From: Cinnamomum chago
Lineage: Eukaryota > Streptophyta > Magnoliopsida > Laurales > Lauraceae
DNA length: 64,000 nucleotides
Direction: 5' to 3'
NCBI GenBank assembly: GCA_038049695.1
Contig: CP142451.1
Location: 30,798,001 to 30,862,000 of the forward strand
The position numbers and the translations under genes are program-made. Under the pieces are notes generated by a model. It was not told the origin of the DNA, did not search any database, and saw nothing but the letters and a program-made list of their open reading frames with translations. Positions 5,985-63,624 of the stretch are shown here, piece after piece; the stretch's first letter is position 1, and every line of letters starts with the position of its first letter.

Positions 5985-6099
5985 GCTGGCCTCACTCATT
6001 AGTGACTTAAAACAAATTAATAGATAGAAACTACAGTTCATCAATGTCTCAGGATTAAGAGCCTATTGCTAGGGAATTATGAGAGCAGAGCTTAAAATG

Positions 6100-6903
6100 A
6101 TGTGGAGTTGATTTCATGTGTGAGGTTATTGATGAAGAGGCTCATATGCATGATATAAGGGTCGCAAATGAAGAGGCTTACAGCTATATTCATGGAATTG
6201 GAAGGCAATACTGGGCCAATGCCTTTGTTGAGGGCCGACAATATGACATGTTGACTTAAAACATTGCAGAATGCTTAAACAATCTATTGAAGCATAATAG
6301 AGAGCTTCCAATAACAAAAGTGGATGATGGGATTCGTGGAAAATTAATGGACTTCTTCTATCTTCGGAGAACTACATCCAGGCAGCTGAGGTCATGCTTA
6401 ACTCCTTGGGCAGAAAGAATTCTAAGCAACTCAAAAGAAGGATCTCGACGTTTGATTTGTCGACAAGCCAGGGAACATGAATTTGAGGTTCAATCTTGGG
6501 AAATCACTGATGTTGTTCACCTAGATAGGAAGAGTTGCACATGTCGGATGTGGGCAATGATTGGGATTCCATGCGAGAATGCCATGTCAGCAATCAGTAA
6601 ATGAGATCTGGATCCATATGATTACTGCGAGGATTGGTACACATCCGATACATATCGAAGAACTTATAGTCATGTGACACATCCAACTCGTGATATACGC
6701 CAATGGGAGCACATTACTCATGAGGTGGTGAAACCTCTCCTTGCTACCAGACAACCTGGAAGACCAAAGAAGAACAGGATTCGTACGAAATAACATAATC
6801 GACAAAGGAGACAGGTAACATGCTCTATCTGTAAAAAATAAGGGCACAACCGACAAAAGTTCCACAATCGACAAAAGTACCACAATCCACCGATAGGAAG
6901 TTA
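6100..6903 (+). pseudogene. MULE A transposase, C-terminal half
   Basis: In one frame with several stops it reads RQYWANAFVEGRQYDMLT then NIAECLNNLLKHNRELPIT. This is the region of the catalytic glutamate of MULE DDE transposases (E in NIAECLN). A SWIM zinc finger follows, CTCRMWAMIGIPCENA, with the last ligand changed (normally C-x-H, here C-x-N). Then come the usual tail YDYCEDWYTSDTYRRTY.. and QPGRPKKNR, and a CCHC knuckle CSICKK*GHNRQKF whose last cysteine is lost. Stops lie at about 6256, 6602, 6791 and 6838. The N-terminal half is missing, cut off by the retroelement insertion. In life it would cut and join element ends in the nucleus; this copy is dead. Confidence 0.85.
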
Positions 6904-6929
6904 ATCACTGAACAACAAACTATGGCTCT

Positions 6930-7160
6930 TATCTTTTTGTAATAGCAGAGCCATGTCCTTTTGTAATAATGGAGATGATGTTCTCTTACTACTTTTTGTA
7001 AAGGACTAGTCATTTCTTTTTGTGAATGTGGTATCATGTTTTTTTTGTAATGGTGGAGTTGAAGTTCTTTTGCTACTTTTTGTAAAGGAGGGCCATTTGA
7101 AATTGTAAATGTGGCACCGTGTCCTTTTGTAATGGTGGAGCCACATCTTATTTAGAAGTT
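6930..7160 (+). repeat. Short tandem repeat, about 80-bp unit
   Basis: The unit contains '..tttttgtaa(t)ggtggag..' and '..ctactttttgtaaagga..'. Copies start near 6955, 7043 and 7122. They lie just 3' of the transposase remnant and have no coding content. Confidence 0.6.
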
Positions 7161-7528
7161 TGTAAAGGAGCAAGAATATTCTCTCTTTGTAGTAAATCAA
7201 TTTGGATACTAATGTTATTTTTTGAATTTGGATACAACCCTTGTAAATGCATAAAAGATCATTGTCCTTCTTAGTTTTATATTCTTGGTTGATCATTGAT
7301 TTTTGATATATCTTGTTGATGACCCCAAGTTTTAAACAATAATTGTATTATTAATGTATCTCCTAAATGCTTTCTATGATGATGGTCGGGTATGCAACAA
7401 CAATTTCATAAAAGTGTGATTGTCTTAAATGTGCAGCTGATGTAGGAGTTTTGTCGTACCTAAAAAATTATCAGTTCACAACATTGGAAATATCCTTATA
7501 CAGAACAGGTTAAACATTCATAAATAGG

Positions 7529-8290
7529 ATTTGTTGACATCAACACAAGATTTGTCGACGTCAACAGAAACTTTTGTTGACGTCGACACAAACGCCCAGT
7601 TATTACAATCAGTGACCATGTGAGTTTGTTGACGTCAACAAAAGATTTGTCGACATCAACATAAACTTTTGTTAACATCAACACATATCTCAGTTATTAC
7701 AATCAGTGACCTTGTGAATTTGTTGAATTCAACAAAAGATTTGTCAACATCAACATAAACTTTTGTTGACATCAACACAAACGCCCAGTTATTAAAATCA
7801 TCAACCCTGTGAATTTGTTGACGTCAACGGAAGATTTGTCGACATCAACATAAAATTGTGTTGACGTCGACAAAATTGCTCAGTTAGCACTATGAGTGAC
7901 CTATGAATTTTGTTGACGTCAATAAAAATGCCCAGTTAGCACCATGAGTGACCCTGTGAATTTGTTGACGTCGATAGAAGATTCGTTGACGTCAACATAA
8001 AATTGTGTTGACGTCAACAAAAATGTCCAGTTAGCACCATAAGTGACACTGTGAATTTGTTAACGTCAACATCAACATAAAATAACATGTTCGGCAATTT
8101 TCATTTTGCACCACCTACATATACAACAAAAATTAACCTGTTGAGTTAAAACATTTAGAAGTTCTAAAATACACATTCACTACCCACATTTATAGCTCCA
8201 AAACACCCAATCACATTGACCATCCTCACCTTCCAAAACTATTCACCTATATCAACATCCATTTTTGTCAACATCAACCACACATTACAA
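7529..8290. repeat. Array of TTGTTGACGTCAACA-type palindromes in MULE A
   Basis: About 16-20 copies of the imperfect palindrome TTGTTGACGTCAACA (variants with CATC for CGTC, or GTCGAC) are packed between 7529 and 8080, with two weaker copies near 8245-8285. They are embedded in a ~95-105-bp unit marked by 'cagtta(t/g)..agtgac' at 7597, 7691, 7796, 7880, 7932 and 8029. The core TGACGTCA equals the palindromic bZIP/CRE-type ACGT element. The array lies between the 3' ends of the two convergent MULE genes. Confidence 0.9.
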
Positions 8291-8519: not shown

Positions 8520-10840
8520 TCACAGAGAAGATTTCAACCTTTTCTCATACAATTCACGCTGCTTGATGTAGAGGTCGACAACTAATCTACACCTGTTGTA
8601 CATCATGTCATTTTGAGTGAAAGCAATCTTTCGATTAAGGACAGCATGCTCTACAAATCCCATTACAAACAAATCCACAATCGTTTGAAATATCTTGTAT
8701 TGGTGTGTCTTCAACATGGTGCCTTGTCCAACTTTTAAGGTCCTCCCATCCAAACTCAGCGAAGCAGTCGTTCAGCCAAATACTCTACATGAAAAACAAG
8801 ATACAATTAGAAAAGTCTTAAGGAGATACAAGTATTTAAGTAATTTAGTTTTTAAGACTTACAAATTCTTTTGCTTTTGGCCATTGCCTTTCATCCATTG
8901 GCATGAAATTGAAGAACTCCCACTTTCCTTCTTTTGGATGTCCAATTTTGACTGTGAAATGCTCAAGATAGAATACCGCTATGACAATAACTTCTTTTTT
9001 CCTCATTAGATCTACCCTCCATCCATATTCGCCAAAAATGTGTAGATAGGACTCGTTACTCTACTTTAACCACATATCCTTCAAGATTTATGTAAAGAGT
9101 TAATGTTACATGTGCAGACCACAAACAAGTGATATTGAATCATGCTTGCTACTGTGAGTTTGTTTGTGAACTTACCAAAGCAATGGCGTCAATACGCATT
9201 CAGTGCCTTTGCCTTAAGATTCAAATCAACCCAGTTTTGCTGTATACCCGTGTCCATCCAATCTCGCGATATAAGTTTCTTTAGCCTTTGAGGAGGGGGG
9301 GTGGGTAGTACATTAACTAGAGAGCTCATCCATCTTGGAAAAAAAGGCCCTATCAAAATCATGCAACATAGAAGAACCATAAGAAAGAAGTCATGGTTGC
9401 TGACTTTTTATAATAATCATCCCAGAATTGGTTGAGTGCTGTAGTCTCCTTATCGGTCAACTTGTATTCAGAATTTTGGGGCCGCTTGAAGTTCGTACTA
9501 AATCCATCAAACTTAGTTGGTCTTTTTTTCTTTTTTCAGGTAGCATTCTTCACATGAATTACAATCGAGGGCACCTTCTCAGTGGAAGGACCGGCAGAAA
9601 TGACCTTTTTCTAGATTTTGGGGGGAGTGCTATTAGAAACCATATGAACTGGAATTGATATTGAAAATCTTGGACTACTCCTTTTGGAGAATACAAAAGA
9701 CAAATGCACGAGACTAGACTCTTTAGAGGATACAGGTGATGAATGCTCCTTTGAGCCAGTCATCATTTGAGTTTGTTCCATTTTTCTCTTCCATGTGGCT
9801 TTCAGCTTTGGACTCAAAGACTTCTCCATCGGTGTTTTCTTTTTTGAGGTCTCCCCATAACCAAATCCTACAAATTGGTCTTTAACAGCATCAATGAAGT
9901 GTCCAACCTTACTCCGACCTACACGCAATACTGTATCAGGGTTCATTTCATCGGCTTTCCTTTTGTTCCCCTCCATGAATGTCTTAAGGTCTTCTAATAG
10001 GAATAAAACCTTCAAAATAAAACTGGAGTAAGTAACAAAATTTATAATGACATTCAATTATTAACTTCAATCATGGGAAAATCCAACTTACTGGCTTTTG
10101 AGGGATGAGTATTTCATCATCTCCTTTGGTGGCATATGTGGGAGTTAGGGGTTCATCATCTCCTTTGGTGGCATGTGTGGGAGTTAGCGGTTCATCATCT
10201 ACTTTCTCTTTAAGGGGGGGAGCAATCCGTAACCGCATCACCGAAGCATACCACATCATATAACTATCCTCGTGCGTTGGTGAAGCATCAGGTTCCCCTC
10301 TTACCACTGTCTTCTCCCTTATTTCCCAAATTGCAATGACTTCTTTCATGGATATCGAATAATCAGCTAGGGACTTCTTCGTTTTATCAGCTCTATCGAA
10401 AGGCATCTGGAAAGGAAGGGGGACCATCTGCCATAAGCAAAATTGTCTCATTTCCCTTTCTGAGTTGTGCCGCTCGACTATCCAATAGAAAAGCATTGTT
10501 GTATTAGATGTGAACCACCTTTGTCAACTTATCAATGATTTCTTCATACGGAGACCATATAAACTGCAAAGTAGAAACTGTTGTTAATCAACAGTTAATG
10601 ATTTGAAAGTATTGAAACAAATAGATTTTTATTAAAGGAAAATATCATATGTACGTAAGAGTCCTCACCTCTTCATGTTTCATATTTTCTAGCTTATCCG
10701 GACGCTTCTTAAGATTCATGGGAGGGTATCTTCGTTTCATAAAAACCCGATTAGAAATCTCCCGAAAGACTAACAACACTAGCAAAAACTCTTCCTTTTT
10801 TTTTTTTAATAATGAAATTAAAGGAAAAGACAGCAAGTAA
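8520..10840 (-). pseudogene. MULE A plant-mobile-domain + Ulp1-like cysteine protease gene
   Basis: Exon-like blocks read right to left. 10840-10670 holds REISNRVFMKRRYPPMNL and ends at a GTGAGG donor. 10567-10080 starts FIWSPYEEI and, after a frameshift, gives IVERHNSEREMRQFCLWQMV, the plant mobile domain (aminotransferase-like, MAIL/MAIN family) core. 10040-9600 is basic and Ser-rich. About 9380-9190 is a linker. About 9010-8860 holds VIVIAVFYLEHFTVKIG with the catalytic His of the Ulp1 (C48) fold. 8760-8520 carries the Asp-Cys-Gly catalytic Cys (8682-8674), a frameshift directly after it, then FVMGFVEHAVL. Such proteases would act on SUMO-like conjugates; activity here is not expected. Upstream exons are cut off by the Athila-like insertion. 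Confidence 0.75.
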
Positions 10841-16268: not shown

Positions 16269-16398
16269 AGAGGGATTTACCGGTAAAATCCCCATAGGAC
16301 CGTATATGTCCCAGCAGGACCCAGCTGAATTTTCGATACGGAAGGGATCCTCGTATTGGCTTTTCTTCTTCTTTTTTTTTTTTTTGTCATTTTGTGAC

Positions 16399-16440
16399 AT
16401 GGTCGATATCGACAATTATTAATAGTCGATATCGACCACT
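16399..16440. repeat. Left palindrome pair of MULE B
   Basis: ATGGTCGATATCGAC (16399-16413) and AGTCGATATCGACCACT (16424-16440). They are matched at the right end by the perfect 18-bp palindrome ATGGTCGATATCGACCAT (22643-22660). Confidence 0.9.
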
Positions 16441-17251
16441 ATACGAGTACCCACATATATCTCGCCCCGATTCCACTTTTCGCATTTCTCCATTTGGGTC
16501 GTCTTCAACACTGCTCTGGACCTTTTTTCTTCTAGAAACCACCATAAAACGCCATCTCCATGGTGGTTGAACTCCATCAAGACAAAGATACACACATTAT
16601 ATACTACATTAGACTGCTTTATGTACCCTAAAACACCATCATCTAGATTCCCCCCAAATATTTAATTGTTGGAAACCATAGAAACCGTGGGAAATCTTGT
16701 TTCTATGCCCTAAGCAACTGTGGTTTATGGGGTGTGAAGGGTTTGTTTTGTGATTGAGTTAGCATCCATTGCAATTAGAAATAATGTATTATGATGAAAT
16801 CCAGCAGTGGGAGAAGTGTTTGGTCATGAAATGGTTTTTTTTTTCTTTTCTTTTTTGCTATCTCCTTTTCATGCATTTGTTACTTTTAGAAGAGAACTAT
16901 CAACAGTTTTAATCATATTGATAAGATGTTGTGGGTGAATCTGCATATTGGTTTTGTTTTGAACTAATCTTACAAAGTTTTAAAATATAATTATAAAATA
17001 AAGCTGTATTTCATGTAATTAATATAATTATAGTTGGTTTTCTTGATGATTTTTGAATAACAGGAGAATGGGCGGAATAATGAGTGAGGAATAGCACTCA
17101 TTAAATGTTTAGTTAGTCGTAAACATTTAAGAAAAGCTGCCTAATCTCTACTCTCAAAGACATACAAATGCGGTTAAAACAGATCTGTATTAACTATCAT
17201 TTGTACCTAATTTTCACCGATCTCTACATTAATTTCATCTGTAATGACAGC

Positions 17252-19071
17252 ATGTCAGATAGAGAGGTGTTGTTCATCTTCCACTATGGCGGTGACTTTG
17301 AATTCGATATAAGTCGTCCTGTGTACAATGAAGGAAAGCAGAACATGAGTTTTTTTGGTACAGACATAACATATGAATCTCTTGCTAAAGAAGCAATTGA
17401 AGCATCTAATGGGGAGTCATCCATCCAGAAATTAAGCATGCAATACCTACATCACAACGGACGGGCATTCTCCCTGTCCAACATTGACGATGACAATGAT
17501 TTTAGGAGTATGTTCAAAGCAGCAGGGGATGAATCGAATGGGATCTATTTATATGTCTTCAACGGACGGAACAAGGAGCAATGCATAGGAGGAGATGATT
17601 GGAGGTACACTTATAAATTGCAGAAGTAGATTGTACATCACCAAATACTGTATTTTCCTTCCTACTTGCTTATTTATGTAACGATTCATTGTAGGTTTCA
17701 AAGGAGCTCTGTTGGTCGCTCTTGTCCGGACAAAACAAGGAACTCAACAGGAACTTCAAACAAAAAATAAGTTTATAACTCAACTAGCTATGGATATGTA
17801 CCCACCATCGACATCCGCGAAGACAAAGACATGTTTTTTCCTACTGTGCGGGTCGATTGCAATCCAAGTCAGACGGTCGGACAAGACACTGTCGATGATG
17901 ATTTGGTATTTGGGAAAGACCATGGTGGTGATATCCATCTTGATGGGCCTCCCTCCATAGGTCAAATCCATTCAAATCCGATGCTGAATGCCAAATTAAA
18001 GTTGAAGGAGCCAATCTAATCAATGAGGCAAGACGTTGTAATGATAATCCAGCTGAAGTTGTAGGAGCCAATCGAATCAATGAGGCATTTCATTGTAATG
18101 AAGCTCCATCTGTTGATCTTGAAGATAAAATGGAGCCCGAGGACATAAACACAGATGTTGGCAACAACTCGGCACGGGAAATGTGGATCGGCCATGAGTT
18201 CCAAGATCGACAAATGTTCTGGAATACTCTGGCTAAGTTCGCAATTTATGGCAACTTCACTCTCAAACCCTTAAAGACCAACATGACCAAAGTGACTGCA
18301 TGCTGCAGAGATCAAGAATGTCCATGGCATATTCCCGCTTCAATTGTCGAGTCAGGCCCATAATTTAAAGTAAGGACGCATAATCCTAACCATAAATGCT
18401 CCAGGCCAATGATGGACATGGCACATCGACAAGCATCTTCGGCGCTTATTACAGAGTACATCATGGATAGAGTCAGACAGAATGTCAATTTGAAACCGAA
18501 GGAAATCATGAATGACTATTAGATGGAGTTTGGGGTGACCATTACCTACAGGAAGGCTTACATAGCAAGGGAGATGGCACTGAATTTGGTCCGTGGATCG
18601 TATGAAGACTCCTTCCAGCAGCTACCTCTGTACTGTAAAGAACTTCGTATGAGCAACCCTGGCACTGTAACAAACATAGACACCACAACAGAGGACCGTT
18701 TCAGAAGATTTTTTTGGGCATTCAGACCTTGTTTAAGGACTTTCACGTCTTCGTTGAGACTAGTGATTGCTGTCGACGGTCCACATCTCCGAGGCAAGTA
18801 TCCAGGTGTCTTGCTTGTAGTTGTAACACATGATGCCAATCAAAAGTTGCTTCCAATCGCCTTTGCATTTGCGGAAGCCGAGCACCGTGACAGCTGGGAG
18901 TGGTTCCTTGCTAATTTGTTCATATCGCAAAGGGAGCCGGCCAACTTGACTATTGTTTTGGACCGTCAAAAGGGTCTCATTCCAGCGTTAAAGAGCACCA
19001 TAACTTCCACATTTCACTGTTATTGTTGTCGTCATATTGCAGAAAATATCAAGGCTGCTTTAGTCAATTAG
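17252..19071 (+). pseudogene. MULE B transposase, C-terminally truncated
   Basis: The ATG at 17252 follows an AG and opens a PB1-like N-terminal domain (VLFIFHYGGDFEFDIS.., to 17629). An intron-like gap and a frame-broken acidic region follow (about 17695-18130). The MuDR DNA-binding domain (18160-18360) carries CCRDQECPWHIPAS. The DDE core has VIAVDGPHLRGKYPG (first Asp, about 18765) and LTIVLDRQKGL (second Asp, about 18955). Stops at 18361, 18520 and 19069 break it. It ends at the CYCCRHIAENIKAAL segment, before the catalytic Glu, SWIM finger and CCHC knuckle. It is closest to the MULE C and A transposases of this window. This copy cannot act; mobility would need another element's transposase. 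Confidence 0.85.
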
Positions 19072-22642: not shown

Positions 22643-22734
22643 ATGGTCGATATCGACCATAACACTAAACGACAAAAAAAAAAAAAAATACAAAAATGCA
22701 CCCAGGAAGCTTTATCCGTGTCCAGTGTGAAAAT
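22643..22734. repeat. Inner part of the right terminal inverted repeat of MULE B
   Basis: Starts with the perfect palindrome ATGGTCGATATCGACCAT, then an A-run (22674-22688), then sequence pairing with 16320-16390. The outer part continues after the solo LTR at 25094-25152. Confidence 0.8.
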
Positions 22735-39661: not shown

Positions 39662-39706
39662 TAAGGGGGTTCAGAGGCGTCTTCCCCATGGTCTGGAGGG
39701 GGAGAT

Positions 39707-48250: not shown

Positions 48251-48512
48251 AATTAGCACGGTTGTTTGTTTCTTTTAATTCTGATTTTAGTTTAGTTTAT
48301 TTAATTTATTTTTATTTTTATTTTATTTTTTTGCTTTTTTAGCTTTATTCACATTGTTTATTATCCTTACTGCAGGGCTTTGATTTTAACACAGAATCTT
48401 AGAATTTGTGCAGGGATCTACGAGAGTTCACAAAGCTTTGCTCAAAGTTTACAGCCTGAGGTCTCTATATCCACACGGTTTCGATTTTTAGGACTAATTT
48501 GCCCCTGTAATT

Positions 48513-49133
48513 GTCGCAACATGTAATGGAGTGGTCTCCAACGTGTCACAATTATTTAGCCACGAATTAAGTGCATAAGCGTGGAAGTTATTACTGATAT
48601 GCCCTTGTAATTTGGCGCAGATCTCCTTTTTTTGAATTTCAAACTGCAATCGTTTCTGATCTTGAATCTGAATGTAGAAACTTAACGAGAGAGAAGATAG
48701 ATATTTTCACTGCCTCATAGTTTTGTAGATTCATTGTTTGCGAAGCAGATTGCAGATCAAACGTTTGGAAGCAGTTCTATTGTAATTGGATTATAGTCTC
48801 ATAGATTGATTGGCTGGGAAGCAGATTTCATATCCAAACTTTGGAAAGGGATTCCATCATTTTTTAGGTAAGCGATTTCTTCTATTTACAGCAGAGAGTA
48901 TGCAATTTTTTTTATTTGAATGTGTAGATCTATATATATTTGATACTCGTGGTCAGTTCTATTCTTATTGGTTTATAGCTTTGTAGATTAATTGACTGGG
49001 GAGCAGATTTCATATCTAACTTTTGGGTAGCAGTTCTATATTTTATATGGATGTTTGATATGTATGTGTAGTTTTTAATTATTTTTTTCCATTTTTATAG
49101 TTAGATTCCATTAGTTTTGTTGTTGATGAACTA
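48513..49133 (+). other. MULE D left subterminal region and leader, no gene
   Basis: Contains three related stretches ('gcagattgcagatcaaacgtttgg', 'gcagatttcatatccaaactttgg', 'gcagatttcatatctaacttttgg' near 48745, 48825 and 49000). I see no coding content. Probably the 5' leader with an intron of the transposase gene. Confidence 0.5.
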
Positions 49134-49960
49134 TTCAATTTGTATCAGCTCAGTTGATGTAGAATTGCTTTGCTTTTTATGATATTTAATTCTAGATGGT
49201 CATGTATTTAGATTAGTTAGAGCCTGATTTATTTGCCAGTCTTATTAGTTTGTTTGTTTTTTTTTTTTTTAGAGCTGCATTGTGGAAGAAGTCATGTAAT
49301 CAAATATATGTGACTTTAGCATCAAATTTATCTAACTGTTAATCAGACAAATCTTAGTTTTTGTAATTTTATCTGAGTTCTATATAAATTATTTGATTTC
49401 TGTATTGAATTTATCTGAGTTCACTTCTGAAAATTCAGATAATTTCATGCAAATTTGGCACAAACTCAGATAGATTTGTAGAGATCATGTTTGTTTTTTA
49501 CATTCTGCATAGTTTTTGCAATGATAATGACCATTTTTGTTATTCATGACCAATTCAATTTGTATGACTTCTGTTGATGTAGAATTATTTTTTATTATAT
49601 TTAATTCTAGGTGATCATGTATTTAGATTTGTTAGAGCCTGAATTATTTGCTAGTCTTATTAGTTAGTTTTTTTTTAGTGCTGCATTGTGGAACAAGTCA
49701 TGTAATCAAAGATATGTGACTTTAGGATCAAATTAATCTGGGTGTCATATATTAGTTTATGCAATTTTATCTGAGTTCTGTAAAATTTTTCTGAGTTCTG
49801 TATTGAATTTATCTAAGTTCACTTCTGAAAATCCAGATAATTTCACAGAATTTTGGCACAAACTCAGATAGATTTGCATATATCATGTTTGTTTTTTGCA
49901 TTATGCATACTTTTTGCTATGATAATGACCATTTATATCCCTTGAACTTTGTTATTTTAT
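49134..49960 (+). repeat. ~420-bp tandem duplication upstream of the MULE D transposase
   Basis: Copy 1 begins 'attcaatttgtatcagctcagttgatg' at 49134, copy 2 'attcaatttgtatgacttctgttgatg' at 49554. Each ends with a cluster of the MULE D word in both orientations (ATTTATCTGAGTTC, then AAACTCAGATAGATTT). The second copy runs to the splice acceptor before the transposase ATG. Confidence 0.85.
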
Positions 49961-49962
49961 AG

Positions 49963-52237
49963 ATGTCACGGCCGTTATTGCTTCTCTGTAAGTATGGCAT
50001 GTTTACGGTTGTTATTCATTTAAGTCGGAGTATGACTTATGATGGTTTGATGCGTCAAGTTTGTAACAAGTGGAGGAATCTTTCAGTGAACATGGTCTGT
50101 TTGACTTATACATTGTTTGGCCACCCAAAGTGCTTGTTGGACAGCGATTCGGATCTACTGAGCTTGTCCATGTTGGCTTCTTCAATGGGATTGGGAACAG
50201 TTGATGTATTTGTATCAGAATTGCAGGAATCAAAGGACGATGATTAAGAGGAAAATGGTGGTGATTTAGTGAAGATGCCCTACCATTAGTGGGGTACGAG
50301 GATGCAAATATAGAGATAGATCTTCTTCCATAGTTTTGTACACACAAGGAAAAGATTTTGGTGTCTTCTGGCTGGGCAAGTGATATTAGAGATGTGGGGC
50401 AGAGGTTTGAGGGCGGTGTTTTGGAGTTTAGAAGTGTCCTGTGCAGATATTCGATTGAGGTTGAGTTTGAATTCGTATATGTGAAAAATGATAAGGTGAG
50501 GGTGACAGTTGAATGCTCTCGCAGTCATTCAATGAGATGCAGATGGCGTGTTCATGCATCTATTGAAAAGTCGAGTGGCCATTTTTGTATCAGGACATTA
50601 AACTATGAGCATACATGTGGTGCAACAGTTCGAACGTCAAAGAACAGCCGTATGAATTCTGAGACAGTTGCAGATTTAATAATGGATCATATCCGTGAGA
50701 AGCCGCTCACCAGACCGATTGATGTCGTGCACCACTTTAAGGCGAACTATGGGCTTACCATTACATATCATCATGCATGGTGGGGGTGTGGAAAGGGCTA
50801 GAAATAAGTTGTATGGTGATTTGTCGCTATCTTTTGACCATCTTTGTTGGTATATTAAGGTGGCGGAGGAGGTAAATCCAAGAAGCCTCTTTGTGCTAGA
50901 TTATGACCAATCAACTATGTGTTTCAAGCGTCTCTTTGTGTTGTTCTATGCTTCAATTGTTGGTTTTAATCATATTCGTCCTTCGTTATTTCTGGACGGT
51001 ACTTTTTTAAAAGGCAGAGATACAAGGGAAACCTGTTGGCAGCAATTGGAAAGAATGAGAATCAAGGTAAGTCGTAATGCTGTTTTTTCTGATATTATTG
51101 ACACATTTATTTATTTTTATATTAATGATCACCATGTTTTGATTTTCTGAATAGTATATGAAATATAAAACTTTGTTAATTCATGCCACAGGTTTGTTCC
51201 CCCTTACTTTGCGGTGGGGGACTCAGAGACGGAGGACAATTGGACATGGTTTCTATAAAATTTAAGGAAAGTTATTTTGTCAGATCGCACTATTACTTTT
51301 ATTTCTGACAGAAATCAATGTCTAATAGAGGCTGTTTCAAGGGTATTTCATTTTGCCCATCATGCGTATTGCCTCCAACACCTTAAGGCAAATTTGAGGG
51401 ACAAGTTGTCTGGTGGTTACACTAATGAATTTAGAGAGGAAATGGTTATGATGCTTCGGGAATGGGCATATGCGCCAACCATTGATGCCTTCCATGCAAA
51501 GCTGTAGTCGTTGAGGCGTGAAGGTAGTTCCAACGTAGATAAATTTCTCTGTGAGTTGTCTCATGAAAGATGGAGCAATGCATATTTTAAGGGTCAACGG
51601 TACGGTGAGATGTGTTCAAATGCTGCTGAATCTATCAACTCATTGATTAGAGAAGCTCTCCATCTTCCAATTACAAAGTTGGTTGACACAATAAGGGTTC
51701 AAATAATGGAGCAGATGGCTAATAAGAAGGAAGTTTCAAGCAAATGAAAGTCAAGCATCTGCCCAGACATAGATAAGAGGCTTGGTACTGCTATCCGGCT
51801 TAGAAGGACGTGGACCGTCAACCGTTCGAGTGAAACTGTTTATGATGTGCACTCTTACCCGTCAGTGATCGTTGACATTTTTAATCACATATGTTCCTAT
51901 TATCAGTGGCAGATCAATGGCTTTCCTTGCACCCATGCTTGTGTTGCGATTCAAAAGAGTGGAAAGGACTTTACTCTCTTTGTTGATCATTATTTTCACA
52001 CTCATACATATAGAGCTTCATATGAAGAGCAGATTTTCCCAATTCCAACCGTGGGAATGCCAGAGACAAAAAGTGTCGAAGCTGTTATTCTCCCACCTAT
52101 TGTTAAACGACCAGCTTGCAGGCCGAAAAAAAGGAGGATCTTGTCAAGAGGGGAGATTACACGGCAGATAAAATGTGGGCGGTGTGGTAGTATTGGCAAC
52201 CATAATAAGAAATCGTGCAAGGAGCCTATTCTTTGAC
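49963..52237 (+). pseudogene. MULE D transposase
   Basis: The ATG at 49963 follows the acceptor ..TTTTATAG. A PB1-like domain (49963-50247) and a broken linker lead to the MuDR DNA-binding domain (50358-50650, CSRSHSMRCRWRVHAS). The DDE core shows PSLFLDGTFLKG (first Asp, about 50990), an intron-like gap (about 51066-51190), then ITFISDRNQCLI (second Asp, about 51295) and NAAESINSLI (Glu, about 51620). A SWIM-like finger CSYYQWQINGFPCTHAC (first pair degraded) and CCHC knuckle CGRCGSIGNHNKKSC (about 52170-52215) close it. Stops near 51258, 51508 and 51747 inactivate it. It is clearly diverged from the A/B/C transposases (longer spacing, different linker), in line with a different terminal repeat and a different motif array. 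Confidence 0.88.
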
Positions 52238-52489
52238 ATTTCATTGAATTAGATGTTGAATTTAGCTTAAGTGTAATATTGTTGATACCTGGGATGTAAT
52301 TCTGATTAGTGAATAATAAGTCAAATTGACATTCCATTTAATGTTGTTTAATGTGCTCTTACTTTTATAAGTAATTACTTTCAAATGTGTCTAAATCATT
52401 TAGTCATTGTTCAAAATTGATATTGAAATTGCATTAGAACTGAGATTATCTGGAATCATTAGCTAGACAGAGCAATCTCATTACTAAGC

Positions 52490-52830
52490 TAAATATATAG
52501 CAGAACTCAGATAATTTCACCCTGGACTGAGATAATTTGATGCAGAACTCAGATAATTTCATTCATGGGTCAGATACTTTCACCCAGGACTCAGATAATT
52601 TGATTTAGAACTCAGATAATTTCATCCATAAGTCAAATAATTTCACCCAGGACTCAGATAATTTGATTTAGAAGTCAGATAATTTCATCCAAAACTCAGA
52701 TAATTTGATTTAGAAGTCAGATAATTTCAATTAAAACCTAGATAATTTCATCCAAAACTGATATAATCTCAGTCAGAACTCAAATAATTTTTGTCAGAAG
52801 TCAGCTAAAAATTCACCAGAAATTAGATAA
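52490..52830 (+). repeat. Dense array of the MULE D word, ~24-bp spacing
   Basis: About 14-15 copies of (A/G)(A/C/G)(C/G)TCAGATAATTT(C/G)A alternate with short spacers 'acccagg'/'atccaa'. The array lies directly 3' of the transposase, between it and the convergent Ulp1-like gene. Confidence 0.92.
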
Positions 52831-54589
52831 AATGATTGCATAGTGCTGATGTACGAAAACATTGACAAGAAGATTCCATATACATTCATTCACAAATGTG
52901 AGAATTACATTGATATAAATGTTTATCCAACATTCATGTGAACAAAAAAAATACATTCACAAGTCTGTTACACGTTCACTTTTCTTATAAAGAGATTTAC
53001 ATTCAAATGTTTCGACTTTTGTTTGACATCAACTTGATTGAAAACAACTTGTTTGTCTCGTTGCTGTAGTTTTTTCATCAGTTTTCGAAGTCATCATCAG
53101 TAGCTTGTTGCATGGCGTGGTAGTTTTCAATTGTCCAACTGCAATGCTTGTCATTTAGGAACTTGCTTACTATCTCTGCCTTTAATCCGTCAATGACGCG
53201 TTGTGGCAGCTTTGAAGCAATTACTTGTTTATGAGTAACTTGCTTCATAAGATAACAAACGACCACTCCGCAATCAACACTGAAACATGACATGCTATTG
53301 TTAGTCGATTGTAAATAAGTCACTGTCAAGCCAATTGAATTACTGTAGTTGCACAATGATACTTACGAACCCATTTTCTGTTGTGGGGCGTCTTCCACGC
53401 TTATCAATGGAGCTCCATATTGCTGTGTCTCCTCAACATTGACATAATTGTAGTTCTCCACATACTGTTTCTGCAGAATAATTTTTTTTTCGTATTTTGG
53501 GTCAGTTTCGTGTATTCTTATGGGGACCATCGTATAAATAATGACTAAGTGAGACATATCAGAATTCGTGCATCCTCAAAATAATGATCGACTGTTTTAG
53601 GTGATCTTGGTCGTAAGGAGTTGTAATGTAACCAATCTCCTTCTTTCTGATCCAGCACCAACAGTGTCCAGTTGAAGGGCTCAGCATCCTTCCTTTTTCC
53701 ATTTGAATTCATCGAAAAAAGCACGAATCTGTGGTCTGCAGTTCTACTTGGGGAGATCTGAAGGTGCAGTATCTATTCCCTCATTTCTGACGATGGGGAA
53801 GTAACAAATTTCTACATTAAGACATGTTTAGTAACTGTTTATGATATATAAAAATAAAGTAAATGATGACACGGTTAAAACAGTTAGTCTTTTACCCAGC
53901 ATAAACTTGTTATGAAGTATGATTTCTCTCGAGGCAGCATTTCTTTATGTTGGACAATTGTGAGTTGCTCTTGGATTTCCATGTTCTCTATATAGCAACT
54001 CAGCGTAGCAGGCAATAACCTGTTCAATTGGAAACACATAATGTTAGGCATATAGTGTGAACACGACCATATTATGTTTGTGTAAAATGTAGGAATATTT
54101 CGTCAATGTTTCTGTGTTGTGATGGTTACAGTGCTTAACATTTCTGCTCTATTGAGAACTGCAATTATGTCCTCGTAAGATACAACTTGTATGCCCTGAC
54201 CTCCCCAAACGAGCGCCCTGCAAATGCAATTACACAAAGTCCTCAATTAGTTTGCATTTTCATTAATGTTTCTTAAATTCAACAGTTGTGTTGCTTAAGT
54301 GCATAAGTATGTGACTTATGCATTGCCCTCAGCTTCATAAATCTCCTTTAGCTTTTTTTACGTCAGATGCATTCATAAGCTTAGTGACTGCATTTTTTGG
54401 GAGTGTGAAGGGGGCAACTGTTGGGTTTATCTTCCTTGTCGCTGTTCTTTTTTTTTATTCATTTCACCATGGAGGATTGTTTCACCTCCTTAATTGGCTT
54501 TGATGGTGCGTCAAACGACATGATCTGACCAATATTTCAATTATAAAAATATAGATTAATCAAATTAGAATTTGCAAAAGGGCAGATAA

Positions 54590-54865
54590 ATTTAATATAA
54601 CATAAGATAAATTTGCTGATAGTGTGATAAAATCATACAGAAGTCAGATAAATTTAATGAAAAGTTTTATAAGTTGATACAGAAGTCAGATAAATTTAAT
54701 GAAAAGTTTTATAAGTTGATACAGAAGTCAGATAAATTTAATATAAGATCAGATAAATTTGTAGAAAGTCAGATAAAATGACACAGAAGTCAGATAATTT
54801 AAAGAGAATTGTTAAAAGTTCATACAGAAGTCAGATAAATTTGATAGATAGTCAGGCAAAACATG
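54590..54865 (+). repeat. MULE D word array within the Ulp1-like gene
   Basis: About eight copies of CAGAAGTCAGATAAATTTAA and shorter forms, with a ~50-bp higher-order unit ('gaaaagttttataagttgatacagaagtcagataaattt'). It occupies what should be an intron of the minus-strand gene. Confidence 0.88.
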
Positions 54866-56109
54866 AATTCAATGCAAACAAAAATTATCTAAACAAGCAT
54901 GGTCGTGTAACTGAATTACCTCAGGTACATTTTCTCCAATGTTATGATCAGTTGCAGCCTCTTCCGCTGCTTTCTCTGCCATTCTAAACTCTTTTTGTTG
55001 TGTATTAGTTTTTCTTGTAGGCTCGAAGATATCATCTAGAGTCTTCCCAGCCCATTGCAATCCTTTCTCTGCATAATCAATTGTCATTTCCCTCAACAGC
55101 TGCTGCAATTTCAAGTTGTTTGATTCCAGAATAATCAACTTTTTCTTCAGGCCATTTACCTCATTTTCTGCATTTGTAGCTCTCGAGGACTGTACATCTG
55201 ACACATTGATGGTGTGTTTCAGTTGCTCTTTGAGGGAGCTGGCCGGTCGAGTTGACTCCTCTAAAGTTTAATTTGTGTCCACATTATGAGTTTCAAGGGA
55301 AGTCTTCTCCTTTGTCAATTGCTCAACCAACTATAGAGCATCGTCCCTTTCTCTTAACAAGCTGGTGATCATTTGTTCAGTTTCAAGCCGTTGCTTTTTT
55401 ATGATGTTGTTTTCTGCCGACGTCCTTTCAAGTTCAATAGCCATCATTTTGATCTGCGCTTGTGATTTGTCTTCTCCTTAGTGAGTTGGATGACTAATGA
55501 ATTTGCCCTGTCACGCTCCTAGGTAAGATTCTTGATCTTGCTGTTTTCGGCTGTTTGTGATTGTTGTCTAAGACTAGGCATTGTATCACCATCTTCTGGT
55601 ACTGATCTAGAGTGTGTTTCAAATGGCTCTTCATATACTATGTTGCTGGTGCTGCCAATTATGTCAGCTAAGATGTTTACAACTAGCAGATCTGTTTGTA
55701 CGAACATCTATTCATAGTCTGCCATCTCTGCACCAAATGATATAGACTATGTTGCCACACCAATGAAATTTGTTTCTTCACTGTTACTATTCTGCAACTG
55801 CTCTTCCAACTCGGATACAATCAATGTATCTGCCATTATGTCTGTATCTGGTTGGGTGGCTTCAATCATTTTGTTCTGTTCTCCCTGCTCTCCTTTTTCC
55901 AATTCATGCTCGCTTTTTTCATTTCCATTCTCTTGATCGTCTCCTTAATCCCGATTTTCTCCTTCTACCTCTACTGCTATGTCTCCCCCATCTCCTTGCT
56001 TTTCGTGTGTTTCGCCATCATCATATTCATATTCTTCCGATGTGTCTTCTCCCTCACTGTTTTCTTTTTCTGTAACTTGTTGCTCTCCTTCTATCTCCAT
56101 CACGACTCC

Positions 56110-59100
56110 TGTGAGAACCCGACCCCTAATCTCTTGGATTAGTATTGTTTTATTTGTGGATTAGTTTCTTTTAGTGGGATTAGTACTTGTTGGGTTGAGT
56201 TTGTGAGCTAGAATGGTTTTTCTCTAGTTTTGGAGAATTTTGAGTGCCTTTGTGATTAGTGGGACCCTTTGGGGGTTCTTTTAGTGACTTTGCGTGAGAT
56301 TGGGAGATTATTTGAAATCCCTGATAATTCTTGTTTTAGCCTCTTTTGACTTATTTTGTTAACCTCTACAACTTTCGTGTTCACTCCGTACCCGTTCGAA
56401 GCTCCGAAAATCAGTTTTTCCAGCCCGGAGGGCAAAAAAGTCTTTTCACACCAAATCTGTACCCAAAACTCGATATTCTCGAAATCTGTGAAACATATAC
56501 TTTTTGGAAACTAGAAATTTCGACGATCATTTCTTCCTTCTTCGTCGAATTCATCCGAGGTCCCGAAAGAGATGATTTCAGCCACCCAAGTTCTTTAAGT
56601 TGTGGGACCCAACCCTCACTTGCTTATAAGAGGAACCCATCTCCTTCATTCATTTCACTCTTCATTTTCCAGCACAAACCAGCTGAACCTAGGGTTCCTT
56701 GTGCTTCTGTTCTTCTTCTTGCTTCTTCATCTCCAAGCCACACCAAGAGTTCATCAATCAAGGAATGGAGATCACCAACCTCTTCCTCATCTTGCAAGCT
56801 TTCCATTGATACCATTTGTGAAGAAAACCCTCCATCACACGACTTCCTTTGAGCTTACCTTGTCCATTAGAGGACCTTGCAAGTAAGTGTTCTTCTTCAT
56901 CTTCTAGATTTGTAATCTTCTAGCCTTAGAGAAGCTCCACCTTGATTATTGAAAGGTTTCCTTGTCATTTCTTGGTTTAACCCATTTTAGGGTTTGTTTT
57001 GGGGGTTTTTGTAGAGATTGTGGATCTTGAGCTTGAGAGGTGATTAGGAGCTTGATTTGCTTGATTAGAATCAAAGGCAAGTGGATGATTGGATCGTTTT
57101 GATTATTAACATGTTTTGTGAGAAAAATCTTGTTTCATTAAGGGTTTTGGTGATTTTAGTAGTTGTCCTTACTATGATTAATATTGATTTCGAAATGTGC
57201 TTATTGATGAGTTTATTTTCCTCTTGTTCATGCTTGGAAAATGTATGCATCATATTGGCAAGGTTTCAAATGGTTTCACATGAATGAGTTTTCTCCACCT
57301 TGAGATTTGTTGTGAATGGAAAGAATGGAAAGGGAGAAACTTGAAATGAGGAGCTCTTTAGCTCATATTATTGTCTTGGAAACATGTATTTTAGTCTTCT
57401 TGTTTATAGTTCTATGCGATTATTTAAGTGTTGGAAAGGAAAGGAAAAAGGAAGGGAAAAAGGGAAGAAAAATCAGTGTCCCGGACCTGCTGCACGCCCA
57501 GGTCCGATCGATCGGTCTGTCTTTAACTGTAAGGCTTTTTGAGCCGATCGATCGGACTCTGTGTATAACTGGTACAGAAATTTCGGCCGATCGATCAGTT
57601 TGAGTCCAGTGAAATTTGATATTGTTTTTTTTTTGGAAACCTTTGGGCTTTCTATGAGTCCTAGGGGTATATACCTTAGTGTTAAGACCAATTATACCCT
57701 AATCTAAGGTCTCTAAGACTAGGGAACTAAAAGAAAAGAATGGTGTTGATTTAGACACTAATTCTTGGTTTTAGGTGGGACCCTGGCTACCCTCTTTGGA
57801 CTGTTTGGACCATGTGTGAGAATGTCTTGAGCCGACACGCCTCACGGTTGGTTCGGTAGCATCGGAGTTCAATCCATTTCAATCTTGAACGGGATGGAAC
57901 AACGCGATATCTTCTTTATATCTAAACACAAGTCTTTCCCTTGGTTATCACGAATTCTATTCCTTTCGGTGACTGAATAGGTTGCTCGATGTTTCTGGAT
58001 TAATGCCATGCCTAGGATGGACCGTTTATAATCTTGATTCTTTTCTATTATAACATCTAGTACTACTCATAAGCTCATTTTAAGTTTGGAAAATCGAAAA
58101 GTGCATAAGGAGCCCGGAATGTCTTCAAACTCAAGGAGTACCAAGTAATTATTATAATCGACATACGGGACCCCTATTCACTTAAATAGATCTTGAAACC
58201 GATATTTTTACCCGAAATTGTTATAGTTCATTGTTTCACCTCATTTCCCGAGATTTGCATCACATGACTTGTTTCCCGAAAGCATTGAAGTTACACTAGT
58301 AACAGTTATTTGTCCCGAAATTTATTGCCCGATATGAAGTGACAGTGTGCCCTTGTGCACCCCCGTTTTACCCGTTTATTTATTGTACTTGAGTTACTTG
58401 CATATGTCCCGATTTGTTATTTGACCTATGAGTCGGCATCACTAAGCTTGGATACCTTGTCGGTTTGATCCACCGACTTGGAAATCCCTCTCCCGTCCTG
58501 CCAGCTGCAGTTTGGATCCCGATACCCGGTTATTGCCGTGGTCCCGTCCCGATACCCAGTTCGCTACCGTGGTCCCGTTCCCGTATATTTATATTGTATA
58601 TATGATTTACGTTGAGTCTCCTCACCTTGTGTGACTGAGACCAACGTCCCGTTATACTCTTGTCACTTCGGTGATAGAGGACTTAGCTTCTTGTGATTGC
58701 CATCTTGCCAGTTCCCGATTCCTTGGATACCCGACATGTTTTATATTGCTTACTTGCTTTCCGATAAATGATTCGTTTCCTTTATGAAAGTTGTTATTTA
58801 AACAAGTGTTAATATTCTCCAATGTAAATTCAGTTATTATTATATTGCCTTCTGTTCTTTGTACCCGCACATGTTTTAAATGAATGCCGGTTGGGCGAAT
58901 ACCCATGCTTTTACATAAGTTTCACACGATCGATGGTTTTACTAGATTTATGTGATTACACATGTTTTAAATGAATACCCGAATTGTTAAATATCCGTGC
59001 TTTGTTTTAAATGACATTTGGTTTGTGAGATTCCTATGTTTATACCTGTTTTAAATGATTACCCGAATTGTTAAATGTCCGTGCTTTGTTTTAAATGACA

Positions 59101-60232
59101 TTTGGCTTGTGAGATTCCTATGTTTATACCTGTTTTAAATGATTACCCGATTGTTAAATATCCATGCTTTGAAATATGTTTCAAATGACACTTGTTTGCC
59201 AGATCCCTACGTTTATACCTATTTTAAACGATATCCGGTTTGTTAAATATCCATGCGTTGAAATATGTTTAAATGAACACTAGTTTTGTCAGATTTCTTT
59301 GGTTACACCTGTTTAAATGAACACCCGATTTGTTAAATATCCGTATTTCTACATAGGTTTCAAATGGACATTGGTTTTGCTAGACTGCTATGAATACCTG
59401 GTTTGTTGTATACTCATGTTTTTACTTAAGTTTCAAATGAACGTTGTTTGCCATACCACTATATTTATACATGTTTTAGACGAACTCCCGATTGTCAAAT
59501 ATCTATGATTATAGATGATGTAAACGAACACATGTTTTATTAGATATTCATGTTTTACCCATGCTTGAAATGAATACAGGTTTTCCCCGAGATTCCCGAC
59601 TTTTGCACCCGTTTAATTATATGCAGCATTTGATCGAGTATCATGATTTATCTTATGTTTTATTCTTCAGTATATTTGTTATCTTTTCATCCACCTGCCA
59701 GACCGTCGTGTCTGACCCACTACTTTTGGTACTCAGGTTCAGATTTCTTCGCCCCGAGTTGAGTGTTTTGTTGGCTGTGGAGCCATGCCTTGCAGGTTGG
59801 TTTGTCGGCTATGTCATGTAGACATTGAGCTTGACATCGGAGCTACGTCACATTTGGGTAGTAGTTTATAGCTTATTGTTGTATGACTTTTATTAGCCTT
59901 TTTCTTGGGATTCTTAATTAATGTACATTGATAATTGTAACTTGAACATATTTGGGAATGTAATATCCTGTTACTGTCAGCTCTGTAATTTATTGTGATG
60001 GTTACTCCAGTCTGATATGATTCTTGATATAATAGCTATGTGCTAAAGGTTGAGTGCGACGCGGAATCCGATGGCCACGGACTTCGGGTCGCAACGCCAC
60101 AAATGCTTCCGCAAAAATATTCAGAATGTGTTGGAATGTGTTGTCTTCACACACGTGGATCCTGGGAGAAGTAAAATACATTTATACTAAATCCCATTCC
60201 CGCCCCCGAGGTTTCGGTTCGGGGGCGTGATA
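56110..60232 (+). mobile_element. 4.1-kb gypsy-type solo LTR inside the MULE D protease gene
   Basis: Starts TGTGAGAACCCGACCCC and ends TTCGGTTCGGGGGCGTGATA (last triplet ATA where ACA is expected). The flanks are ACTCC (56105-56109) and GCTCC (60233-60237), a 5-bp duplication with one change. Removing it joins ..GACDKG to VMEIEGEQQ in frame on the minus strand. No primer site or gag is inside. Three CCGATCGATCGG palindromes (57503-57592) precede a GTATATACC (57667). A ~86-bp tandem repeat fills 58850-59560. Confidence 0.8.
58850..59560 (+). repeat. ~86-bp tandem repeat within the solo LTR
   Basis: About eight diverged copies of '..gttttaaatga(t/a)nacccga(a)ttgttaaatatccgtgctttg..gttttaaatgacatttggtttgtgagattcctatgtttata..'. 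No coding content. Confidence 0.8.
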
Positions 60233-61377
60233 GCTCCCTTGTCACAAGCGCCACTGTCCAACAAGGACTATAATCGCTGCACTTCAAGCAGTGTGCTATC
60301 TAATTCGTCACCGAGGACCTGCATTTGATAACAATGTTACACAGAACATGTTAGATTAAAAACTTAGATAAAATTAGATAGTGAAAATTGTGAAAAATAC
60401 CTCAGTAGCTAGTAGTGAATGAAGGGACCTTTTCCTAAGTGTCATACTCACTGCCCTTAGATTCCACTTTAGTATTTGTGGGAAATGCACTGAATCATTT
60501 GGTATGATAATCGTCGTGTGCTCACACAACCAATACTGTTACAAAATCATAAAACAGATACGTATGTCAATTATTCTGTGTATATTGAAATTAAAATTTG
60601 TAAATTTGTAGTTGCATATCATATCGGTAATGCAATAAGGCACCCAATTACTCTATCAGAGCCACGGCTTCTAGTGTGTACCAACTCCATGAGAAATTTT
60701 GAAATCTCTTTTGCCCAGGCATAATGCTTCATATCCATGTAGTTTTCGACATAGCCCACGTATGCCCATCCTATTGTGTTTCCATGGGTTGCAAAAAAGA
60801 TTACAACAAGGATATACGGGCACAGTAGCCTAGCAACATCAACAATGTCAATTTTTTATTCTCCATTCAATGCTAGAAGGAGTTGTTGCTTTATTTCTGG
60901 AGCCGACACCCTTAAACATCCATGGAATCTCCTAGATATGAATTCAGATGTTTTCCTCTTTGAGTACTTCAGATCAAGCGCTCTTGTTCCATTCGGTATG
61001 CCGAATATCAATGATATGTCATTTGCAGTGAATGGCACGTAGGACCTCCCTAGTCTGAACTGCCTTCTTTAGGTGTTGTATGCATCAAGGATCACCATAA
61101 TGTCCTTGTCATACTTTCTGCACATTTGTTCAGAGATTTTGTTGTCCAGCATGCATTCTATTAGGCTCCAGAATGAAGTCTTTCTTAATTCAACACTATG
61201 GACTTCAGTGACCATCTGCTTGATGCTTTGGACTAGTGACACAGTTGAGACCAAATTCGATCTAAACTGGTAATGAGTGGTAGTCTTCTCAGCATTTTTG
61301 TCTTTACTGACTGCCGTTTTGTTTGATGGTTTATCCTCTACCATTTTTCTCTTGTTTTGTTTTCTTTCTGCATAGAG

Positions 61378-62694
61378 TAAAATAACTCAGATTCATATCA
61401 TCAAAGATTAAGATAAGTGAATACAGAGCACAGATAAATTGCACAAGACACACATAAATTTATCTTAAATTCAGATAAAGTTTATATAAAGTCAGATAAT
61501 TTGCTTATGGAGACAGATAAATTTGATATAAACTCAGATAAATTAAAGAAATAGACAAAAGGTTTGTTGAATTTTCATTCCAAAGTCATATGCGTTTGCT
61601 TTTAATCTCAGATAAAGTCAAGAGACATTGATTCAACTTTACACAGAACACAGATAAAATCATTACATGGATACCAAAAAGAATGATAAGTTTTGTATAA
61701 AACTCAGATAAAAATATTAGCAACTGGTTACATAATGGAATAAACTCATATATTGGTGTCATTCAATCACAAACCCAATTAAAATCAGATAAACTTAATT
61801 CGAAGGCAGTAGAAACTTACTTAAATACTGAGATAAATTGAGGCCAATTCATCAAGAACAGTTAAATGCATCCCAAGCACATATACATTCATCATAATTT
61901 GAAGTGATTTTCATGCCAAACTCAGATTCATTTTCATTCCAAGCAAGCAATCTCAGATGAAGACAATATAAATTGAATTTAAAGACAATATAAATTGAAT
62001 TAAATTCAATAAGAACTCATAATAAAGTCAATAGACATTGATTGAAGTTTGTTTAGAAGACAAATAAACTCAATATAAATTTGTATTGATTAAAATAACT
62101 TAGATTCATATCATCAAATATTAAGATAAGTGAATACAGAATACAGATAAATTGCACAAGACACAGATAAATTTATTTTAAATTCAGATAAAGTTTATAT
62201 AAAGTCCGATAAATTTGATATAAACTCAGATAAATTAAAGAAATAGACAAAAAGTTTGTTGAATTTTCATTCCAAAGTCATATGCGTTTGCTTTTAATCT
62301 TAGATAAAGTCAATAGACATTGATTCAACATCACACAGAACACAGATAAAATCATTACAGGGATACCAAAAAAAATGATAAGTTTTGTATAAATCTCAGA
62401 TTAAAAATATTAGCAACTGGTTACATATTGGAATAAACTCATTTATTGGTGTCATTGAATCACAAACCCAATTAAAATCAGATAAACTTAATTTGAAGGC
62501 AATACAAACTCACTTAAATAGTGAGATAAATTGAGGCCAATTCATCAAGAACAGTTAAATGCATTCTAGGCACACATAGATTCATTATAATTTGTAGTGA
62601 TTTTCATGCCAAACTCAGATTCATTGTCATTCCAAGCAAGCAATCTCAGATAAAGACAATATAAATTGATTTAAATTCAATAATAACTCATAAT
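61378..62694 (+). repeat. 713-bp-period duplication carrying MULE D words (intron of Ulp1-like gene)
   Basis: Copy 1 is 61378-62022 and copy 2 is 62091-62694, starting 'taaaataact(c/t)agattcatatcatcaaa.attaag'. They are roughly 93-95% alike by eye. Each has about 12-14 copies of (A)CTCAGATAAATTT or close variants. The block lies within the first intron of the minus-strand gene. Confidence 0.9.
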
Positions 62695-62942
62695 CGAGTA
62701 GTTTATAAGGTAATAGAGAGTTAATATTTTTTTGAAAAATCTAAGATAAAATTACTTGAAATTGACAAAGTAGCAATGAATATTATACATTTGGTTCAAA
62801 ATTTTTAATTTATACAAAAGCATTCTACAAAAATTACAGACATCATAAGCAAAAAAGAAAAAAAATCTATCTAGATACCTTCTACTTGTTGTTGCTTTTG
62901 CTTCTGGCTTTCTGAAAGTATTGAGGACTTCGTTCTCGCCAT

Positions 62943-63529
62943 TTCCTGAATAGGTTTTCGTTATTAGAAGAGGAACCAGAAAGAATGATAGAAAATCATT
63001 CCAAATGACGATTAATAGTAAGATAGGGTTTCGAAACCAAAAGAGTGAGAAACTTTCAACTTACAAGGGAAATGAGTAGTTTGAACTGTATTTTATGCCT
63101 TCGGAAACAGTTATGCAGTTAGGCAACCGTCGTCTACAACTAGGGTTTGTATCTCGTCTTTCTTGTATTTCCTCTTCTCGAAATCGAAGATATCTTTGAT
63201 GCAAACTCAAACTTGCAATGAAACAGTTAATCTAAGGAAAGCTTTTGAAATTTTTATCTAACCTGTTGTTCTTCATTGCATGCAGTCACGGAGACGAAAA
63301 CGTTGCCTTCTTCGTCAGGGCTTTCTTATTTCAGAAGATTCGAAACTTTTGACATATGATTGTATCGCTTTCATTGGCTTTATTTTAATAAAGACAGAAT
63401 GAATATAAGGGCAAATTGGATATTTTAGGTTCCGAATTGTGTGTGAGGGACCTTTGGCTGGATGTTTTTTTTTTTTGTGGACTATTTGCAATAAAGTGAG
63501 AAGTTGAGGGACCTCCGACCAAAGTCCCC
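62943..63529. other. MULE D right subterminal region and promoter side of its Ulp1-like gene
   Basis: No coding content. Being 5' of the minus-strand ATG, it should hold that gene's promoter. The outer ~130 bp is the MULE D terminal repeat, ending GGGGACTTTGGTC on the minus strand at 63529. Confidence 0.55.
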
Positions 63530-63624
63530 AAAAAAAAGTGCTAACAACTAAATGATGGTTTTGTTATTATTCTTTATAAAATGGATTAATTACAATATAA
63601 GCTTAATTATTTGGTAAAAACCCC
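63530..63624 (-). repeat. Right terminal inverted repeat of MULE C
   Basis: Inverse of 28456-28551: poly-A (63530-63537), then ..AACAACTAAATGATGGTTTTGT and TATAAGCTTAATTATTTGGT, ending AAAAACCCC at 63624. Followed by the target duplication TAAATACTA (63625-63633). Confidence 0.88.

Follow-up and report, generated by a model that had tools for sequence, protein, structure and literature searches.

Family-specific palindromic words at the terminal inverted repeats of three related Mutator-like elements in Cinnamomum chago

Motif arrays whose reader is a second protein of the same element have been described for the VANDAL elements of Arabidopsis, Mutator-like elements (MULEs) of the kind without terminal inverted repeats (TIRs) (PMC5735166, PMC10398659). 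For VANC21 and VANC6 the targets given are YAGTATTAY and AGTTGTCC/AC, which stand in tandem repeats outside coding sequence (PMC5735166). We analysed a 64,000-nucleotide stretch of Cinnamomum chago DNA (contig CP142451.1, positions 30,798,001 to 30,862,000, forward strand; hereafter the window), in which an initial annotation had proposed four MULEs, A to D, each with its own short recognition word in many copies. We find that the words of A, B and C are two-fold symmetric and that in each of these families the palindrome occupies the inner edge of the TIR, ~105–145 bp from the terminus. If arrays in TIR MULEs are also read by element proteins, the codes by which transposases or PMD-Ulp1 proteins recognize DNA would be readable from genome sequence, the role of captured PMD and Ulp1 domains for MULEs would become a question of direct binding and methylation, and the graded series A, B and C would offer a natural set for site-reader co-evolution.

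Other described systems share parts of this arrangement. Maize MuDR/Mutator resembles A to C in its 9-bp target duplications and in TIRs that contain the promoters of two convergent genes, and its transposase binds a ~32-bp TIR motif; the available part of that account gives one such site per TIR and makes no mention of a private array of dyads separating the two genes (PMC3310237). An Ulp1 or PMD gene within a MULE is found in the Kaonashi KIU elements (PMC13317346), in grapevine, where the gene can have either orientation relative to the transposase (PMC2528002), and in the PMD-MULEs of grasses and Amborella. In the latter, as far as they are described, PMD is fused to the transposase, whereas here PMD and Ulp1 lie in line and the transposase runs towards them, the array standing between (PMC5418596). 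Aedes Muta1 and its relatives have MULE TIRs with short subterminal tandem repeats that are retained by non-autonomous copies; however, those are direct units of 9–15 bp inside the TIR, and these elements have a FLYWCH-type zinc finger (PMC5225508). A literature search, with most subscription journals outside its reach, found no account of dyad arrays in TIR MULEs.

The features of A, B and C in the window are as follows.

6260..6793, plus strand: element A, C-terminal part of the transposase with a SWIM zinc finger (PF04434, 5.1e-5; tblastn relatives in A loci)
7529..8071, no strand assigned: element A, array of 17 degenerate palindromes with core GTYGAYRTCRAC, at spacings of 21, 22 and 51–52 bp
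8520..10523, minus strand: element A, PMD-Ulp1 gene remnants, convergent to the transposase (PMD 6e-7; gene order as in family copies L015 and L016)
16270..16440, plus strand: element B, left TIR (GAGGGATTTACC...; 40 places scored genome-wide, 21 ends aligned)
17123..19068, plus strand: element B, transposase pieces with DNA-binding and MULE domains and an in-frame stop (PF10551, 3.7e-17; similarity to C)
22642..22687, minus strand: element B, right end, inverted palindrome region (inverted repeat 89%; ATGGTCGATATCGACCAT at 22643-22660)
28447..28455 (left) and 63625-63633 (right), no strand assigned: target duplication TAAATACTA of element C (flanking sequence)
28456..28550, plus strand: element C, left TIR (window inverted repeat; family copies)
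28568..28587, no strand assigned: element C, TIR-edge palindrome AGTTGACGATATCGTCAACT, then a TATA-like box
30564..33425, plus strand: element C, transposase (31436-32809 with the DBD_Tnp_Mut and MULE domains; end piece SWIM-like by eye)
33834..34343, no strand assigned: element C, first half of the array
34372..40028, plus strand: copia long terminal repeat (LTR) retrotransposon that splits the C array and is not part of the system (LTRs; gag, integrase and reverse transcriptase domains)
40163..40413, no strand assigned: element C, second half of the array
41131..43656, minus strand: element C, PMD gene ending in an Ulp1-like piece and running towards the transposase (PMD 4.7e-11; Ulp1-like piece by eye)
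63530..63624, minus strand: element C, right TIR remnant beyond D, palindrome missing

Judged by their sequences, elements A to C belong to the TIR MULEs and share one transposase lineage. Element C spans 28456-63624 with matching TIRs and the 9-bp duplication TAAATACTA on both sides, exact 9-bp duplications also flank the A copies L018 and L029, and B is recognized by its TIRs. The C transposase contains the MULE domain PF10551 (2.8e-13), and the MuDR-type DNA-binding domain PF03108 was found in C and D; the B transposase is 46% identical to that of C. Core transposase pieces in the A loci, found by tblastn, are 34–52% identical to C, and it is through this similarity that the MULE domain is assigned to A; in the window the upstream side of this gene is truncated by an LTR pair (1-793/5133-5976). 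Among ten proteins similar to the C transposase piece, those that are named come from Hibiscus, Cinnamomum and Persea.

The dyad words, GTYGAYRTCRAC in A, ATGGTCGATATCGACCAT in B and GTTGRCGATATCGYCAAC in C, recur at one TIR position in family copies. For A we took 20 loci, each 10 kb long, from the first 100 places listed for the A word and, within these loci picked by the array word, located ends by the outer 33 bp of the TIR. Of the 20 loci, 17 contain this sequence, which marks 29 ends in all, and the palindrome lies at +125 to +129 in 28 of the 29. B and C places were picked by TIR similarity with queries that contain the palindrome, so both samples are biased towards its retention: it is found in 21/21 B ends (20 of the 40 scored places plus the window copy; ≤3 mismatches) and, at +107 to +130, in 32/36 C ends (39 found, 3 duplicate sequences removed; ≤4 mismatches). 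The palindrome is also the most conserved 12-mer of the TIR in A (0.986 vs a mean of 0.883) and in B (0.976 vs 0.890; 21 ends). The A alignment again holds 29 ends, but not the identical set, since the L019 end without a site at +126 was left out and the L024 left end put in. In C, conservation of the palindrome is no higher than the TIR average among the 36 distinct ends. The palindromes could in principle be functionless, a product of tandem slippage of TIR-edge sequence that hitch-hikes with the elements, and the average conservation in C, the local palindrome duplications in some B and C TIRs and the variation of array length between copies would all be expected from this. We consider it very unlikely, given the same TIR position in three families, the conservation peaks in A and B, and a mirror-symmetric constraint that is confined to the core.

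This constraint is clearest in the A family, where the half-sites of 291 oriented copies show mirror-image base preferences (GTYGAY) that fade outside the 12-bp core; the mirror pattern in the core is also seen at the 33 C ends and 21 B ends, read inward. Mixed orientations were rejected as its source, as the core symmetry persisted when the A arrays were oriented by the spacer mark GCCCAGTTA (291 copies retained, 17 omitted). The C palindrome shows A/G variation at two symmetric positions. Palindromes between convergent genes, as in A and C, might instead fold as hairpins in convergent transcripts and serve 3' end formation or as a source of small RNA. However, the half-sites of the 308 A copies vary independently, with paired changes in at most 6/308 at any of 8 pairs and broken pairs common, and at the TIR edge the palindromes precede the TATA-like box, which leaves the RNA hairpin highly improbable. 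Matched half-site preferences combined with unpaired changes fit a dimeric DNA-binding protein. A frame of GTYGA and TCRAC had been proposed for all three words, and indeed the zero-spacer formula GTYGAY.RTCRAC covers A and B; in C, in contrast, GTTGRC half-sites flank a GATATC spacer, and the D word falls outside the frame. The centres of B and C both read CGATATCG.

The words of A to C are close to private. Words were counted in A loci chosen through the A word and in B and C loci chosen through TIR similarity, which makes the off-diagonal numbers the fair part. Across 200 kb, the A loci contain 252 A and 22 D words and none of B or C; across 5.5 kb, the B loci contain 36 B words and 1 A word and none of C or D; and across 36.2 kb, the C loci contain 59 C words, 4 B words and 1 A word and none of D. 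The 15.1 kb of window element D hold 24 D words and 1 A word, and 30 kb of flank hold none of A, B or C and 1 D word. In the 1.06-Gb assembly we counted 96 forward and 78 reverse occurrences of the exact A 15-mer (174), against 14 and 14 (28) for a reversed-pattern control. Within the window all words exceed dinucleotide shuffles (mean of 10): 21 vs 3.1 for the A 14-mer and 4 vs 0.4 for the B word (≤3 mismatches each), 9 vs 0.2 for the C word (≤4 mismatches) and 29 vs 4.4 for exact TCAGATAA of D. The initial annotation was right that the words stand where it placed them, in terminal and non-coding parts; for A to C the family copies, each keeping its own word, support its idea of element-specific recognition sites well. 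Its picture of many exact copies has to be amended. Full exact words are rare in the window (1–3 each; two D spellings reach 11 and 5), the arrays being degenerate copies of the words; B is not an array there but has two palindromes in its left TIR (16400-16415, 16423-16438) and one at its right end; and the D word, at 22 copies in the A loci, is less private than the others.

Both the privacy and the position of the words bear on whether host transcription factors use them, the elements borrowing host activators beside their promoters. A TATA-like box starts 3–8 bp past the palindrome in 21/33 C ends (at 6 bp in 18), and TATATCT follows it in 17/21 B ends. Moreover, A contains TGACGTCA, which we take to be a bZIP-type core, and TTGAC is presumably a WRKY-type core. 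A shared host factor, though, would not need words that are private between families, nor would it explain three different sites at one position in three related families, and the TIR-edge version in A reads GTTGATGTCAAC, not TGACGTCA. We therefore regard the use of host factors as unlikely.

In the A family, the array of L015 and L016 is flanked by transposase and PMD-Ulp1 pieces that converge on it, L017 and L024 have one of the two genes each with the array on the gene's 3' side, and the remaining loci of the 20 hold transposase fragments alone (6) or neither gene (10). Four miniature copies of 638–747 bp (L012, L014, L018 and L029) retain both terminal palindromes together with internal ones. 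The presence of the site in nearly all TIRs read, its retention in non-coding dependants and the B site, for which no PMD-Ulp1 gene is seen in the window copy (B relatives were not searched for one), make the transposase our first choice of reader; as the palindromes of A to C also mark TIRs, its role would include the ends. We thus propose, at about an even chance of being right, that the words are dyad sites for a dimeric family-encoded protein, most likely the transposase acting through a zinc finger of the WRKY-GCM1 type. A transposase dimer would sit on the dyad at the inner edge of each TIR and there hold the ends and control transcription; the TATA-like boxes downstream of the B and C palindromes suggest that this site would lie at inward promoters, as in MuDR. 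Multiplication of the same site would have produced the arrays, which lie between the convergent genes for transposase and PMD-Ulp1 (in A, and in C by its layout), inside the A miniatures and at the TIR edge of some B copies. We infer that such arrays would collect the protein in numbers, for regulation, for titration or to keep the family unsilenced.

The WRKY W-box is TTGAC, and TTGAC/TTGRC is contained in the half-sites of A and C. A structure model of the C transposase weakly matches DNA-bound Aft2 (4lmg, E 5.8e-3), which we take to belong to the WRKY-GCM1 zinc-finger class, and has better matches to the ISCth4 transposase. Several points weigh against the transposase as reader. The C model is predicted with low confidence (mean pLDDT, a per-residue confidence score, 67.8) and is poor in the DNA-binding domain (~45–65); the C palindrome is of average conservation; the end sets are not fully word-blind, since the palindrome was part of the B and C queries and the array word picked the A loci; the agreement between site and domain, set out below, rests on three families; and end recognition of the MuDR kind, as far as it is described, would not need the mid-element arrays of A and C (PMC3310237).

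The second gene is the other candidate. Under this alternative PMD-Ulp1 would bind the palindromes and de-silence its own family in the manner of VANC, the TIR site keeping the promoters open and the array spreading the effect. The A array lies between the two genes in L015 and L016, and L016 encodes both domains (PMD 1.1e-21; Peptidase_C48 1.6e-8, the only copy above the Pfam cut-off). CpGs are better retained in B palindromes (68 kept and 11 decayed, against 132 and 50 outside; p=0.017), but not clearly in those of C (49/17 against 99/53; p=0.21), and in both families the copies are related and not independent. PMD is not known as a DNA-binding domain, which counts against this reader, as does B, with its sites and no such gene seen in the window copy. 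On the other hand, the motifs bound by VANC proteins are family-specific and stand in tandem repeats of non-coding DNA (PMC5735166, PMC10398659), and for PMDs captured by MULEs an anti-silencing role has been called "tempting to speculate" (PMC5418596). Taken together, a PMD-Ulp1 reader seems to us rather unlikely.

Read by eye, the place of the catalytic Asp is taken by Asn in the Ulp1-like pieces from A, C and D (FFNSM, FFNFM, CYNTM, HYNSL; L016 3526-4089 and, in the window, 8845-9060, 41131-41412 and 53545-53772, minus strand). The His is retained, and the Cys motif is retained in L016 and D.

Word and DNA-binding protein might change together, as the initial annotation had suggested, and the three families give a hint of this. 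Over 80 positions the domains of A and B share 49 identities, those of A and C 42 and those of B and C 41; A and B, with the most similar domains, share the zero-spacer site, and C differs. More tentatively still, the families could form a private system unlike VANC, which we hold possible but doubtful. In it, a dimeric element protein would read a TIR dyad multiplied between transposase and PMD-Ulp1, each family with its miniatures would open and mobilise only itself, and half-site, spacer and reader would change together as families split (zero spacer in A and B, GATATC in C).

The parallel with VANC drawn in the initial annotation holds in part. As in VANDALs, family-specific words stand in non-coding arrays, differ between related MULEs and accompany a second protein (PMC5735166, PMC10398659). 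A, B and C differ, however, in having TIRs, dyads and TIR-edge sites, and VANC motifs are not given as palindromes in the available parts of these accounts. The second gene here is PMD-Ulp1 rather than VANC; the VANC domain DUF1985 is absent from the Pfam matches of the A and C pieces, where PMD and Peptidase_C48 were found instead. An Ulp1-like protein had been claimed for A, C and D, and Peptidase_C48 in L016 bears this out for the A family, whereas the pieces that A, C and D have in the window lack a Pfam match to it and were recognized by eye; the PMD match in window A is itself weak, under the curated cut-off. For A to C the VANC analogy is a reasonable candidate for a second layer.

D is the more literal VANDAL-like candidate, with ends that are not inverted copies. 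Its features are these.

48447..63529, plus strand: element D, high-copy MULE, ends not inverted copies, nested in the C right TIR
49963..52236, plus strand: transposase pieces (PF03108, 1.2e-15; 224 relatives)
52501..52790, plus strand: array of TCAGATAATTT units 3' of the transposase, at spacings of 21, 42 and 63 bp
54583..54855, plus strand: second array (TCAGATAAATTT)
61369..62682, plus strand: duplicated block rich in TCAGATAA words (90% direct repeat)

Of 39 other genomic places scored for each D end, 36 start at 48447-48448 and 37 stop at 63529-63541. In 14 cases a left and a right end match share one strand within 20 kb (lists paired by eye), so neither end is an inverted copy of the other, and no inverted match between them is better than E 0.047. 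Some other D copies measure 10.8–11.1 kb. D therefore has its own family ends, which rules out C plus D as a single 35-kb unit; the two are not neighbours, but D is nested in C. The D transposase is distant from the A to C lineage (26–27% identity), and among the 120 listed of its 224 relatives most are from Camellia, Rhododendron and Rosaceae, with Liquidambar at the top. The D pieces gave no Pfam match to DUF1985 or Ulp1, and the Ulp1-like motifs of the second gene were seen by eye. A PB1 domain has no Pfam support at the transposase N-termini of B and C, and that of D scored 0.046, below the cut-off.

The flanks of D share no single target duplication, the longest word in common being 8 bases; together with the palindrome missing from the C right end this means that something was lost, by deletion or rearrangement, beside the left end of D. 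The left flank (48430-48450) is gypsy LTR-like, and the right flank (63525-63540) is C TIR. A tandem repeat lies near the left end at 48772-49026 (query part 333-501 matches again just behind) and is present in many D copies genome-wide.

The D word is non-palindromic and mostly repeated 21 bp apart. Its spacings lie close to whole 10.5-bp turns (vector 0.86, -1 degree; 45 spacings), as do those of A (0.81, 9 degrees; 240 spacings). Helical phasing as a common rule fails in B, with a usual spacing of 23 bp, ~two bases off the helical turn (0.82 at 62 degrees; 18 spacings), and in C, which shows no phasing (0.13; 19 spacings). Because tandem copies share their spacing, we do not take phasing as proof.

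Among the A copies, L018 (2764-5404) and L019 (3740-6370) have extra internal TIRs, nested or multiple, which resemble the multiple-TIR MULEs of PMC3310237. The LTRs of the copia element in C (34372-34693 and 39707-40028) are 97.2% identical. An inverted pair at 13898-15545 and 46869-48435, 88–92% identical, is probably LTR sequence, one member adjoining a gypsy-like gag-protease. Finally, a 22-bp tandem repeat of CCGGTCAACCGGCC, a palindromic word with GTCAAC, lies outside A to D at 23232-23335.

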